33,420 bases of DNA from Pirellulales bacterium. GTDB taxonomy: Bacteria; Planctomycetota; Planctomycetia; Pirellulales; Lacipirellulaceae. Below, piece by piece: positions 9,314 to 14,090 of this stretch (the first letter of the stretch is position 1; each line of letters opens with the position of its first letter). The translations under genes and the position numbers were made by a program. Below the pieces are notes generated by a model. It did no database searches. It was not told the origin of the DNA and was given only the letters and a program-made list of their open reading frames with translations. The stretch covers positions 1 through 33,420 of the forward strand of contig JADZFK010000242.1 in the NCBI GenBank assembly GCA_020849945.1. Reading direction: 5' to 3'.

Positions 9314-9386
9314 CACGGACTTCAGTCCGTGGTAGGTTCAGATAAAGCCTGTGCCAAATGTTGATCCTGTCAATCCTGTCAATAAA
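9314..9386. repeat. Palindrome plus 9-bp direct repeat upstream of rlmKL
   Basis: CACGGAC (9314-9320), TTCA, GTCCGTG (9325-9331) is a perfect 7-bp stem with a four-base loop. It is followed at about 9360-9385 by TTGATCCTGTCAATCCTGT, a duplicated 9-bp ATCCTGTCA unit found in similar form near 2232 and 14147. These strings lie in the 5' region of rlmKL. Reading them as coding would add the artefactual peptide MPNVDPVNPVNKQ, which is one reason to start the gene further in. Confidence 0.75.
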
Positions 9387-9422
9387 CAAGCACCTTCGCG
9401 GGGGGGGGTGTTCGACAAGGCC

Positions 9423-11789
9423 ATGTCCATGCCAGATTCCCAACAACATGAACTAAAGCTCATCGCAACGGCGGCGGCCGGAACCGAGTCGATCGTCAAG
9501 CGGGAACTCGCCTCGCTTGGATATGAAGCCCGCGTGACCACGCCAGGCCGACTCCTGTTTGAAGCACCGGCTTCGGCCATTGCCCGCGCAAACCTGTGGC
9601 TTCGCTCGGGTGAACGCGTGCTGATCGAGATGGGCCGCTTTGCCGCCACCGATTTCGGCGTGTTGTTCGATGCCACGGCCTCCCTGCCATGGGAGCGTTG
9701 GCTCACTCGTGATGCGGCTTTTCCCGTGAGTGGCCGATCGCACCACTCGCAGTTATCAAGTGTCCCGGCTTGTCAGAAGATCGTCAAACGAGCGATCGTC
9801 GAACGATTGCGAAAATCCCACAAGGTTCAACTGCTGCCCGAAACCGGGCCGCTTTACGCGGTCGAAGTTAGTTTACGCGACGACCTCGCCACGCTGACAC
9901 TCGATACCACGGGCGTCGGCCTTCACAAACGCGGTTACCGTCGCCTCGTGGGCGAAGCCCAGTTACGCGAAACGCTCGCCGCGGTGCTCGTGCAATTGAG
10001 TTACTGGCGACCGGGCCGTGTGCTGGTCGACCCGTTTTGTGGCACCGGGACGGTTCCGATCGAAGCCGCGCTTCTCGGTCGGAATATCGCCCCCGGCTTG
10101 AATCGCAGTTTCGTGGCTGAAGCTTGGCCCACGCTTCCCGCGCCGTTGTGGCGCGAGGCGCGTGAAGAGGCTCGCGATCGAATGCTCCCACCCTTGGCGG
10201 AACGCCTGATCGGCTACGACATCGATCCGGAAGCTCTGAGCCTCGCCCGCTTCCACGCCGAACAAGCGGGCGTGGCCAATGACATCCATTGGCAACAACG
10301 CCCCTTCACCGAGTTGCGGGCAAAGGCCGAATTCGGTTGCTTGATCACGAACCCGCCCTATGGCGAACGCCTCAACACCGATTCCGAAGTCGAAGAACTC
10401 TATCGATCTTTTCCCCTTGTTCTCCGGCGTCTTCCTACGTGGTCGCACTACATTCTTTCATCGCGACACGATCTCGAAACACTCGTGGGCCAACCAGCAA
10501 ACCGCCGTCGAAAACTCTATAACGGCGCTCTCGAATGTACTTACTACCAGTTCCACGGCCCACGGCCATCGCCCGCTTCTGCCCTCCCACCCAAGGAAGG
10601 GCAGGGCGGGCATTTCGCGGAATCCCATGTCCTTTGCGGGGCAGGGCAGGGCGAGAGCTCGAGGGAACCTCTCTTCCCCACCACGGCTACCGAGGAAGGG
10701 CAGGGGGAGGGGACCAACGTCCTCCCGCTCCCCACAACTTCCACGGCTTCTGCAAAGGCGTCCCCACAACAACCAGTTCTGGGCCCTGCTTTCGGCGGCC
10801 TCCAATCCTCTGCCGCCCGGCAAGCCGAGGAGTTCGCCAATCGCCTAAAGAACCGCGCACGCCACCTGCGACGTTGGCCCACAAAACGCGGTATCCGTTG
10901 TTATCGACTCTACGATCGCGATGTGCCCGACGTTCCGCTCATTGTCGATTGCTACGAGGATGCGCTGCACATCGCCGAGTTCGCTCGGCCACACGACCGC
11001 ACGCCAGCCCAGCATGCCGATTGGCTCGATGCGATGGTCCGAACCGCCGCCAAAGTGCTCGAAATTCCCCGTGATCGTGTTTTCGTGAAACACCGTGACC
11101 GCCAACGCGGCACCGACCAGTACGAACGGATCGACGATCGCGCGGCACGGTTCGTCGTTCACGAGGGTGGATTGAAGTTCGTCGTCAACCTCTCCGATTA
11201 CATTGATACCGGTTTGTTTCTCGATCATCGCATCACGCGCGAAATGGTTCGTCAGGCGGCCAAGGGCACCCGCATGCTCAATCTGTTTGCTTATACGGGG
11301 GCATTCAGCGTCTATGCGGCGGCCGGCGGTGCCGTTTCAACAACTTCCGTCGATAAGTCGGCCACTTACACGGCTTGGGCCCGCGAGAACCTTGAACTGA
11401 ACGGCTTCAGCGGCCCCGCGCATCGCATCGTTCAAAGCGATCTTCGCGAGTTCATGGCGAGGCTCTCTCCGGGCGAGGTGTGGGACTTGGCCGTGGTGGA
11501 CCCCCCCACGTTCTCGAACACGAAAGGTTACGAAGACGATTGGGACATTCAACGCGATCATGGCGAGCTATTACGCCAACTGGCCAAGCACTTGTCGCCA
11601 AACGCTGTCGTGTTCTTCAGTACGAACTCTCGTCGCTTTCACCTTAACGAAGCCGCTCTGGGCGATTATGTCGTTCGCAACATCACTCGCCAAACGATCC
11701 CCGAAGACTTTCGCAACGAGCGTATCCATCAATGCTGGAAGTTGATCCGAATGGACTCATCTCGCTCCGAGCGTGAGATGAAAGGCTAA
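9423..11789 (+). CDS. rlmL: Bifunctional 23S rRNA methyltransferase RlmKL
   Basis: A 788-residue fusion of RlmL (m2G2445) and RlmK (m7G2069), which modify 23S rRNA during 50S assembly. The N-terminal half has a THUMP region (about 60-160), the SAM motif DPFCGTGTVPIEAA from residue 203 and catalytic NPPY at 310-313. The C-terminal half has an RlmK/RlmI-type domain with NLFAYTGAFSVYAAAGG (about 620-636) and DPPTF from 693. E. coli RlmKL is 702 residues; the excess of about 86 matches a Pro/Gly/Ser-rich linker at residues 380-464 made from repeat-like DNA. The last dozen residues (DSSRSEREMKG) also lie beyond the normal end and come from repeat DNA. ATG 9423 (or 9429) is chosen because the earlier frame only encodes an intergenic repeat. 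Confidence 0.93.
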   Translation: MSMPDSQQHELKLIATAAAGTESIVKRELASLGYEARVTTPGRLLFEAPASAIARANLWLRSGERVLIEMGRFAATDFGVLFDATASLPWERWLTRDAAFPVSGRSHHSQLSSVPACQKIVKRAIVERLRKSHKVQLLPETGPLYAVEVSLRDDLATLTLDTTGVGLHKRGYRRLVGEAQLRETLAAVLVQLSYWRPGRVLVDPFCGTGTVPIEAALLGRNIAPGLNRSFVAEAWPTLPAPLWREAREEARDRMLPPLAERLIGYDIDPEALSLARFHAEQAGVANDIHWQQRPFTELRAKAEFGCLITNPPYGERLNTDSEVEELYRSFPLVLRRLPTWSHYILSSRHDLETLVGQPANRRRKLYNGALECTYYQFHGPRPSPASALPPKEGQGGHFAESHVLCGAGQGESSREPLFPTTATEEGQGEGTNVLPLPTTSTASAKASPQQPVLGPAFGGLQSSAARQAEEFANRLKNRARHLRRWPTKRGIRCYRLYDRDVPDVPLIVDCYEDALHIAEFARPHDRTPAQHADWLDAMVRTAAKVLEIPRDRVFVKHRDRQRGTDQYERIDDRAARFVVHEGGLKFVVNLSDYIDTGLFLDHRITREMVRQAAKGTRMLNLFAYTGAFSVYAAAGGAVSTTSVDKSATYTAWARENLELNGFSGPAHRIVQSDLREFMARLSPGEVWDLAVVDPPTFSNTKGYEDDWDIQRDHGELLRQLAKHLSPNAVVFFSTNSRRFHLNEAALGDYVVRNITRQTIPEDFRNERIHQCWKLIRMDSSRSEREMKG
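10560..10812 (+). repeat. Repeat-like DNA inserted in frame in the rlmKL linker
   Basis: About 255 bases within rlmKL differ in composition from the flanking domains. They contain several GGGCAGGG words (near 10600, 10638, 10643 and 10696), GAGGAAGGGCAGGGGGAGGGG, and C-rich complements. Spacers elsewhere in the window hold the same kind of strings (GGGGCAGGGCAGGGGAGGGG at about 7978-7997, GGGAGGGGGTGGGG at about 1894 and 19857). The encoded peptide is low in complexity and joins two complete domains without breaking the frame. Confidence 0.65.
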
Positions 11790-11977: not shown

Positions 11978-12436
11978 TCAATTGTTCTCCTCTGGTATGG
12001 AAGGCAACCAGCGGCGGCTAAGGTCTTCGAACATGGCATCCCACTTTGTGCGTTGATCCGCCGAAAGCGTGTTGCCGATCTCGGTTCGCAACTGCTCAAG
12101 TTGCGACACGATTTCCGGCTGAAACTTCTTCCGAATCCTCAGTATCTCAACTTGGCGGCGCGCAACGATCTCTTCGACCAAGGCGGTCTGGCGGTCGTCC
12201 AAACTCAGTTTTCGTTTCAGTAGCGCGGCGGCTCGTTGCGGCGCGACTTCGGGGTGTTGAATAGCGTGCTGCAATCGGTGTACGACTCCATAAACTGCGA
12301 CTCCCGCACCGGAAGCAAAGCCCATTCCAAAGATCAACAGGCCGAGCAGCACCGTAAGCCAACGACGCCTGGGGCGGTCGGCGCGGGGCAGGGGGGCGCT
12401 CGGCGAATCGATCGTGTGCGATTGCGTTCCGCTCAT
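11978..12436 (-). CDS. Membrane-anchored Spy/CnrX-like periplasmic sensor
   Basis: A 152-residue protein. A basic N terminus (RPRRR) precedes one transmembrane helix (about 26-50) and a helical periplasmic domain. After the membrane comes HRLQHAIQH (His53, His57, His61), then the LSLDDRQ (78-84) and LSADQRTKW (124-132) turns typical of Spy/ZraP/CnrX four-helix domains. CnrX-type sensors hold an anti-sigma factor and release it when metal binds. The His-x3-His spacing is like the first CnrX metal ligands, but the later His-x3-Met appears as Lys-x3-Met (131-135), so metal binding is uncertain. Its ATG overlaps the stop of the preceding gene (ATGA), implying translational coupling. It is the last gene of a four-gene cluster. 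Confidence 0.72.
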   Translation of the reverse strand: MSGTQSHTIDSPSAPLPRADRPRRRWLTVLLGLLIFGMGFASGAGVAVYGVVHRLQHAIQHPEVAPQRAAALLKRKLSLDDRQTALVEEIVARRQVEILRIRKKFQPEIVSQLEQLRTEIGNTLSADQRTKWDAMFEDLSRRWLPSIPEENN

Positions 12437-12702
12437 TGAAGGGTAACCACAAAAGGTGAAACGAACGTTACAAGGGGCGATTGCAACTGCGACCATGCCT
12501 CCATCGCGTAATAACTGCTGGCAACTACCGCCGTGCAACTCGCCGCCAGTACCGCCGCGAGCGGCCGAACGGCCTCGCCCCAATAACTCTCCTGCCGACC
12601 GACACGGATCGTCCGCAGTACACGCGCCCGCACGTCCACCGGAATCGGCGATTCGATTTCGGCAGCGCTGCCGTAACGCTTTAACCAATGTATTTCATTC
12701 AT
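12433..12702 (-). CDS. Small single-pass membrane protein, putative anti-sigma factor (CnrY-like)
   Basis: An 89-residue protein with a soluble N-terminal part (MNEIHWLKRYGSAAEIESPIPVDVRARVLRTI) and one hydrophobic segment (about 46-68, VRPLAAVLAASCTAVVASSYY). It has no recognisable zinc-finger (HxxxCxxC) anti-sigma motif. The role is inferred from context: it overlaps the sigma gene by 8 bases upstream and the sensor gene by 4 bases downstream, the same order as sigma / short anti-sigma / periplasmic sensor in Cnr-type loci. ATG 12702 is preferred to 12732 because AAAGG lies just before it. A general small membrane protein of another kind is possible. Confidence 0.6.
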   Translation of the reverse strand: MNEIHWLKRYGSAAEIESPIPVDVRARVLRTIRVGRQESYWGEAVRPLAAVLAASCTAVVASSYYAMEAWSQLQSPLVTFVSPFVVTLQ

Positions 12703-13282
12703 CCTTTGTCTCACGGAACCCAAGTTGGTCATACAATCGGCGAAATTTCCTCCGGGCTCGATAGGCCTGAACCTTGATCATCGTTGGCGACCACCCCGCC
12801 AGGTCGGCCGCCTCGGTTACGCTGCGAGATTCCACGTACAACAGCGTCAATACAAGCCGATCTCGCGGCGGAAGCCGTTCGAGTATCCTGGCAACGGCCT
12901 CGCTCTGCTCAAGCCGCTGCAGAGAACCATCGTCATTTGTTTTCGCCACAGGCTCCAAGGCCAGGCGATCAAGCGAAACCAAGTCGCCACGGCGGGCTCG
13001 CTTCCAATACCGATAACCAATCCGCGTCGCAATTCTTTGAAGCCAGTGCTCGAGTGGGGCATCGCCTCGATAGGTGTGCAAACTAAAGTAGGCTTCCACG
13101 AACACGTCGTGCGTCAACTCCTCAATCAACGCCCGATCTCGCGCGAACCTCGCCATGCGGCGGGCAATAACCTGCTGGTAACGTTCGATGACTCGGGCAA
13201 ATGCGGCTCCGTCGCCCTGAAGCGATGCCGCCACATCCATATCGAGTTGCTTCCTGCCAGCCGCTTCCGTCTCCGCTTCCAT
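12695..13282 (-). CDS. ECF-type RNA polymerase sigma factor
   Basis: A group-4 (ECF) sigma-70 family factor of about 195 residues. Region 2 is visible as GDGAAFARVIERYQQVIARRMARF, ELTHDVFVEAYFSLHTYRG and PLEHWLQRIATRIGYRYWKR. Region 4 is visible as LERLPPRDRLVLTLLYVESRSVTEAADLAGWSPTMIKVQAYRARRKFRRL, with the expected helix-turn-helix. It should direct RNA polymerase to an envelope-response regulon including its own operon. The start is uncertain: ATG 13282 follows a GGAA, ATG 13240 follows GGAAG nine bases away, and the open frame reaches 13447. The gene sits 173 bases after the Spy-like gene, a stretch that may contain a longer basic N terminus (KDRDGKGRKRKGGSG) if translation starts at 13348. 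Confidence 0.88.
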   Translation of the reverse strand: MEAETEAAGRKQLDMDVAASLQGDGAAFARVIERYQQVIARRMARFARDRALIEELTHDVFVEAYFSLHTYRGDAPLEHWLQRIATRIGYRYWKRARRGDLVSLDRLALEPVAKTNDDGSLQRLEQSEAVARILERLPPRDRLVLTLLYVESRSVTEAADLAGWSPTMIKVQAYRARRKFRRLYDQLGFRETKDE

Positions 13283-13455
13283 TCCGATTTCCAGTACAGC
13301 CCCGCTACCACCTTTTCGCTTCCGACCCTTGCCGTCGCGGTCCTTCATCATCCATAGGAACCATGCCCGCACCCGCGCTAACACGGGTACGGGCACCGAG
13401 TTCATTGGGACGGTACAAGTCATCACGGGTAGGAAATGCCTTGCCAATTAGCAAG

Positions 13456-13944
13456 TTATTGATTGACAACCTTCTGCAGGAACTTGTCAACCGCCGCATC
13501 CGCTTCTCCACGATGCGATTCAATCTTCTCGATCTGCTCGGATGTCAGCACGCCTGCCACTTCGCCCTTGATCTTCGACGCCAGTACTGCGGCATCGCCG
13601 ATCGACTTGCCCATCTCGTTGGCGGCAGCCCGAATCGCCTGCTCGTTCGATTCCTTCGACAGCGTGGCATCACGCAAGGCTCGCCGCTTCTCGACGATCG
13701 GTTTTGCAACGGCCGCAATCTCCGAGCGATGGCTCTCGACGATCTTGCGAATCGACTCACGCTGTTCGTCTGTAACATTCAGCTCCGAACGCAGCGTCAT
13801 CAGGCGACCAAATTGCCCCTGAAGAAACACCCGTAGCGGTCGGGCGGCTTCCATGCTTTGAACCAGGCTCGGCGCCGCAACGGCCCCCAGCGCACACACG
13901 GCCAATCCAATCATGCTTAGCGATACAATCGTTCGCTTTCTCAT
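13456..13944 (-). CDS. Exported Spy/CpxP-like protein
   Basis: A 162-residue exported helical protein. The signal peptide MRKRTIVSLSMIGLAVCALGAVAA is followed by two LTxxQ-type repeats, LNVTDEQRESIRKI (about 55-68) and VLTSEQIEKIESH (about 131-143). These are the hallmark of Spy/CpxP/ZraP periplasmic chaperone-sensors. It heads a minus-strand cluster with the sigma factor and the membrane-anchored relative, so it is probably a target or a modulator of that envelope response. The ribosome site GAGGAG...AAGG precedes ATG 13944. A TGTAACC word in the upstream 120 bases could be an ECF -35 element, but no matching -10 was identified. It is unlikely to be an enzyme. Confidence 0.8.
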   Translation of the reverse strand: MRKRTIVSLSMIGLAVCALGAVAAPSLVQSMEAARPLRVFLQGQFGRLMTLRSELNVTDEQRESIRKIVESHRSEIAAVAKPIVEKRRALRDATLSKESNEQAIRAAANEMGKSIGDAAVLASKIKGEVAGVLTSEQIEKIESHRGEADAAVDKFLQKVVNQ

Positions 13945-14090
13945 CTTACCTTAACTCCTCTGCAATGGGTGGAAGGGTGGCACTTGGCCACGACACCAAC
14001 TTAGTGGCACCAACCCAAGCATTGGTTACACCCCAAAATAATCTTTTCTTGCCCCCCAAGCTCTACACACCGAACTTGCGATGGTATGTT

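Follow-up and report, generated by a model that had tools for sequence, protein, structure and literature searches.

CnrYXH of Cupriavidus metallidurans (pMOL28, NC_007972) is the described system with which the present locus is best compared. The ECF sigma factor CnrH is freed from the CnrYX complex and then transcribes its own operon (PMC4803752), and CnrY wraps the sigma factor with two helices (PMC4598750, PMC7406223). The RpoE8 operon of Azospirillum brasilense Sp7 (AMK58_RS24945-24955) encodes a sigma factor, a hypothetical protein, and a "periplasmic heavy metal sensor" in this order, with 4-nt overlaps (PMC12826043). Spy of E. coli, an exported LTXXQ protein, is an envelope-stress chaperone under the control of Cpx/Bae/Rcs and not of a linked sigma factor (PMC8144458). 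Its relative CpxP is a regulon member that acts as an inhibitor of CpxA, and misfolded protein is believed to titrate it (PMC6737893). In both CpxP/CpxA-CpxR and ZraP/ZraS-ZraR, the Spy-fold periplasmic protein is a chaperone and a regulon product, and feeds back on the sensor (PMC6737893).

In the present study, we analyzed a window of 33,420 nucleotides from a bacterium of the order Pirellulales. Planctomycetes possess many ECF sigma factors, the partners, signals, and promoters of which are unknown. The locus described herein is probably an autoregulated envelope-stress sigma circuit that resembles CnrYXH in its working but lies outside that family. It shares with CnrYXH an ECF sigma factor, a single-pass protein of approximately 90 aa (the anti-sigma factor there and a candidate here), and an anchored sensor of the Metal_resist/LTXXQ type. 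The genes of both systems form one overlapping operon; transcription by its own sigma factor was reported for CnrYXH (PMC4803752), whereas autoregulation in planctomycetes is a computational prediction from a promoter box. However, the planctomycete order is sigma-small-sensor rather than Y-X-H, linked RND metal efflux genes are not present, and a third of the loci have an additional Spy gene at the head of the operon. Since membership of the CnrY family and conserved metal ligands were both searched for and neither was found, we do not regard the module as a member of CnrYXH.

The Azospirillum operon demonstrates that the order sigma-small-sensor exists outside planctomycetes. Its hypothetical protein has a hydrophobic segment, as does the small protein, but is unrelated in sequence; its sensor is not recognized by the planctomycete sensor profile, and no Spy gene adjoins it. 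The Cpx and Zra systems employ two-component kinase sensors, in contrast to the ECF sigma factor and anchored LTXXQ protein of the present locus.

Gene organization

Table 1. Positions of the genes and predicted promoter of the locus within the window.
Feature	Position	Strand	Description
Spy-like (LTXXQ) exported protein	13456..13944	-	162 aa, N-terminal hydrophobic signal peptide
ECF sigma factor	12695..13447	-	Longest ORF 250 aa
Small single-pass protein, putative class-II-like anti-sigma	12433..12702	-	89 aa
Membrane-anchored sensor, LTXXQ/Spy-fold	11978..12436	-	152 aa
Predicted autoregulatory ECF promoter	14002..14030	-	TGTAACC 14030-14024, 15-nt spacer, GCCACTA 14008-14002

The four ORFs were located in the order and on the strand given in the original prediction, which had also proposed translational coupling of the last three genes. 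The overlaps on which this proposal was based were recovered on measurement (8 nt between the sigma and small-protein genes and 4 nt between the small-protein and sensor genes), and overlaps or short gaps, most commonly ATGA, separate the genes in nearly all loci. In a genome of the same genus, a 246-bp gap lies between the sigma factor and the small protein (L010:6989-7234), such that the coupling of this pair is broken. The gap holds a repeat-like stretch reading SPSPSGRGLG / LSLRERAGVRV. An RlmKL-type methyltransferase encoded at 9351-11789 of the window has a low-complexity insert of ~90 residues between its two domains, which resembles this repeat in flavour. An Rfam scan of the window returned no match.

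The sigma factor of the window matched Sigma70_r2 and Sigma70_r4_2 above the Pfam cut-off, and TIGR02937 at 70.8 bits (cut-off 42.9). It has regions 2 and 4 only, without region 3, and, thus, belongs to the ECF (sigma-70 group 4) factors. Its start is ambiguous; GTG 13426, ATG 13423, or ATG 13405 is more plausible than TTG 13447. The Spy-like protein exceeded the gathering cut-offs of LTXXQ (PF07813; 3.6e-10, 40.9 bits against 24.3) and Metal_resist (6.5e-7), and its hydropathy profile showed an N-terminal hydrophobic segment. The LTXXQ score and the signal peptide place it in the LTXXQ superfamily. It matched E. coli Spy (3oeo) at 5.4e-5; assignment to Spy proper was rejected, with a score of 35.3 bits against the cut-off of 174 of the equivalog model NF007769.

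Distribution of the module

The last three genes form a conserved module that is inherited together across the planctomycete phylum. Searching with the sensor recovered it from 8 of 60 near genomes, while profile searches yielded 24 strong loci within the order and loci in 55 of 392 genomes sampled across the phylum. An ECF sigma factor and small protein directly precede the sensor in nearly every untruncated strong locus, the exceptions without an adjacent sigma factor being L054 and L158. Since these loci had been selected for the sensor, a sigma-only scan of 84,980 genomes was performed to avoid circularity. The 27 loci obtained were mostly planctomycete, with one from Hydrogenedentota, one from Wallbacteria, and a sigma fragment on a contig of Armatimonadetes; the small protein and sensor followed in order in all loci that were long enough to show them. 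After the removal of duplicates, the sigma factor, small protein, and sensor occurred in the same order in 70 of the 72 sigma loci (nearly all from Planctomycetota), a count of which the sigma-seeded scan is the unbiased part. The small protein was present in 71, and the two loci without the full triad (L079 and L089) run into contig ends. This recurrence argues against a chance cluster.

The original prediction had treated the four genes as one cluster. The order sigma-small-sensor is indeed maintained in relatives, whereas a Spy-like gene lies directly upstream of the sigma gene in about a third of the loci (24 of 72, comprising 23 identified by script and L048). At least 11 families are represented among these 24. 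A Spy-like gene was not found at any other position in the loci, with the exception of the sigma-less L054. Since two thirds of the loci have no upstream Spy gene, Spy is dispensable for the module. The Spy-led state requires about 10 changes on the sigma tree, indicating that it was gained or lost repeatedly, and is more clustered than with shuffled labels. No other neighbor recurred in more than 5 of the 70 loci.

In L054:4984-5631 (G127), the Spy-like protein is fused in frame to the small protein, and the sigma gene between them is absent. This arrangement, which retains the promoter box upstream, may represent a deletion, decay, or a real fusion.

The literature searched, which did not take in the key ECF classification papers, contains no description of the planctomycete module; therefore, an ECF group for this sigma factor may already exist on paper.

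A shared promoter

The original prediction missed a promoter shared among the loci. A conserved box, TGTAACC-N15-SCCACTA, precedes the Spy start in the otherwise unalignable upstream DNA of Spy-led loci, and is located ~57 nt before the Spy ATG in the window. Deviations comprise a 14-nt spacer in L080, TTTACTA in L052, and a masked last part in L050. In 733 kb of loci, the strict pattern gave 28 matches, 18 of which lay on the right strand and no more than 700 bp upstream of the lead gene; the matches in L048 and L051 also belong before the lead gene and add two to this number. We trained a weight matrix on seven Spy-led loci and tested it on 64 held-out loci. In 33 of the 64, its best score in the whole locus, on both strands, fell within the 650 bp that precede the lead gene, against ~2 expected by length. 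The box is common to Spy-led and Spy-less loci, and is recognizable in most copies of the module. With the matrix, it was weak or not found in about one third of the loci, most of which belong to distant lineages. The conserved box fits an autoregulated operon, and the linked sigma factor presumably recognizes it.

Two strict-pattern matches revealed the missing Spy-sigma heads of genomes G368 and G081 on other contigs; the sensor contigs of these genomes had begun without them. Among the perfect matches in the genome of the window, that at 14002-14030 is the one before a gene start. Eight of the 13 strict matches in 11 whole genomes belonged to this operon.

These genome-wide counts bear on the size of the regulon. 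In an alternative explanation, the sigma factor serves a wide regulon elsewhere, of which the Spy-like gene is just one incidental member, sharing the promoter because of where it lies. In its favor, many loci lack Spy, and further boxes were noted: in G161 and G771, before the gene of an exported protein that lies close behind the sensor gene, and in G127, before a gene for an RND adaptor. However, the strict box occurs only about once or twice per 4-11 Mb in the genome of the window and most relatives, one occurrence being this operon, and the transcript begins with Spy, which directly follows the box. Furthermore, relaxed promoter patterns were no more common than a reversed control pattern, from which we concluded that the regulon that can be detected consists mainly of the operon itself. 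We consider a wide regulon to be highly improbable. A general second output behind the sensor was also rejected (1 box match against 2.4 expected by density).

Individual second boxes were observed. In L061:6398-6426 and L129 (G771:C100:56180-56208), a box lies just behind the sensor gene and before a different exported protein gene; these are possible alternative outputs. A promoter-like box in L202 (G127:C160:2910-2938) is located 47 nt before a gene that, by eye, resembles an RND-type periplasmic adaptor. This is the genome that lost the sigma factor from the operon, and the box may be due to chance.

The candidate anti-sigma factor

Exactly one transmembrane segment was predicted in 39 of the 40 small proteins, starting near residue 45 and with a more positive N-terminal flank. 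In the window protein, the AF2 model (pLDDT 85) has cytoplasmic helices at residues 3-14 and 24-38, and the membrane segment starts from about residue 44. The cytoplasmic part carries a family motif, P-x-D-V-x3-V, around the start of the second helix (IPVDVRARV in the window), the positions of which are well conserved (P in 33, D in 34, V24 in 36, and V28 in 39 of the 40 proteins). Class II anti-sigma factors of the CnrY/NepR mode are defined by two cytoplasmic helices that embrace sigma4 and sigma2. Based on its position, topology, and shape, we infer that the small protein functions as the anti-sigma factor.

Neither the small protein nor the sensor of the window had a significant Pfam match of its own, and the small protein showed no significant homology to any Pfam anti-sigma factor. 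An NCBIfam anti-sigma model matched 7 of the 40 small proteins weakly (best 6e-5), and none of the 40 matched the CnrY/NccY family models PF17524 and NF033790. Homology to CnrY could not be demonstrated: an early collinear match of the small-protein profile to 4cxf_B (E 2.3) vanished with more sequences, and the hhalign alignment with CnrY was collinear but no more than suggestive, at a probability of 4.6% and with 3 of 100 N-terminal shuffles scoring as high.

The absence of a significant CnrY match leaves room for another arrangement, in which the short N-terminal tail of the anchored LTXXQ protein holds the sigma factor, with the small protein serving as an accessory or a connector. The sensor and small protein are both single-pass with a cytoplasmic N terminus. 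However, the conserved cytoplasmic motif belongs to the small protein, and the weak anti-sigma profile matches also fall on it, whereas the cytoplasmic tail of the sensor, of about 25 residues, is unconserved. We regard this arrangement as quite unlikely, and retain the small protein as the candidate anti-sigma factor.

The sensor and the question of metal

All 42 aligned sensors have one transmembrane segment (residues 26-53, approximately, in the window). Their invariant or nearly invariant periplasmic positions, L79, L124, Q128, and W132, correspond to two LTXXQ motifs, which occupy residues 79-83 and 124-128 of the window sensor. Profile comparisons showed that the sensor and the Spy-like protein are homologous (Spy-like family: hhalign probability 97%, E 4.9e-11; E. 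coli Spy: 1.3e-4). The same approach did not reveal homology to CnrX. Metal_resist (PF13801) was matched by 16 of the 42 sensors (E<0.01), the window's own sensor not being among them. The two motifs are 45 residues apart in the sensor (range 38-46), in contrast to 75-76 residues in Spy-like proteins and 76 in CnrX; therefore, the sensor appears to be a shortened version without about 31 inter-motif residues that are present in CnrX. In the AF2 model (pLDDT 88.7), the membrane helix continues to residue 60 and is followed by helices at 65-77, 81-121, and 126-143. A fold search of this model against PDB and BFVD found nothing significant, a long membrane helix with a short hairpin being a poor query.

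The original prediction compared His53-x3-His57-x3-His61 of the window sensor with the metal ligands of CnrX and, in view of the lack of metal efflux genes nearby, suggested envelope stress or a different metal as the signal. The histidines are present, but are not a family feature (H53 in 3, H57 in 7, and H61 in 17 of the 42 sensors). When measured against the ligands of CnrX, ligands of this type were not supported, because these histidines vary among the sensors, which also lack much of the inter-motif stretch. The absence of metal efflux genes was confirmed in the window, and no metal transporter was recurrent near the 70 loci.

These findings weigh on a metal-sensing circuit of the CnrYXH type, in which the sensor would bind a transition metal via H53/H57/H61 and other residues and free the sigma factor, with the Spy-like protein acting as a ZraP-like metal-binding chaperone. 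Metal_resist, the Pfam family of CnrX, does match some of the sensors as well as the Spy-like protein, and H-x3-H occurs in the window sensor and several close relatives, such that metal may play some role. However, in addition to the poorly conserved histidines, the shortened motif spacing, and the lack of metal transporters, the Spy-like protein of the window is not His-rich. We consider this circuit to be unlikely. Since neither conserved ligands nor linked metal genes were found, metal sensing is less likely, and, of the two signals suggested, envelope stress fits better than metal.

Proposed circuit

We propose that an envelope-stress circuit operates as follows. At rest, the small protein would hold the ECF sigma factor at the inner membrane via its two N-terminal helices, and the anchored LTXXQ/Spy-fold protein, which reads the periplasm, would keep the small protein in this holding state. 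Periplasmic stress would then change the sensor. The input is most likely unfolded protein, acting directly or via a soluble Spy-like protein that is drawn away; metal is a less likely input. The released sigma factor would transcribe its own operon from TGTAACC-N15-SCCACTA, producing the Spy-like chaperone and more of the three regulators. The chaperone would relieve the stress; it may also switch the circuit off by binding to its anchored homologue, in the manner of CpxP with CpxA.

An envelope protein-folding circuit is the most economical reading because of the precedent of CnrH, the position of Spy as the first gene in the transcript, and the relationship of the sensor to Spy. The weakest step in this reading concerns what the signal is; unfolded protein or Spy is a more likely signal than metal. 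We tentatively suggest that the shortened, tethered Spy fold may be a receptor for unfolded envelope protein, while its soluble homologue provides both output and feedback, although this specific assignment is more doubtful than the circuit as a whole. If true, planctomycetes have an envelope unfolded-protein response that combines a single chaperone family with a single ECF sigma factor. The circuit would also take the CnrYXH design outside metal resistance and provide a minimal chaperone-as-receptor system that can be studied. Since a sigma factor, likely anti-sigma factor, receptor, output, and promoter were identified together and are co-inherited across the phylum, the circuit is directly testable.

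Some receptors deviate from the common form. In L067:5414-7753 (G201), a 779-aa frame lies beside an ECF sigma gene, and its N-terminal part weakly matches the sensor profile (1.4e-8); it may be the same receptor bearing a large additional domain. By Pfam count, C-terminal EF-hands are present in about four sensors, such as L076:2105-2701, which was assigned by eye; they may point to a calcium input in this clade.
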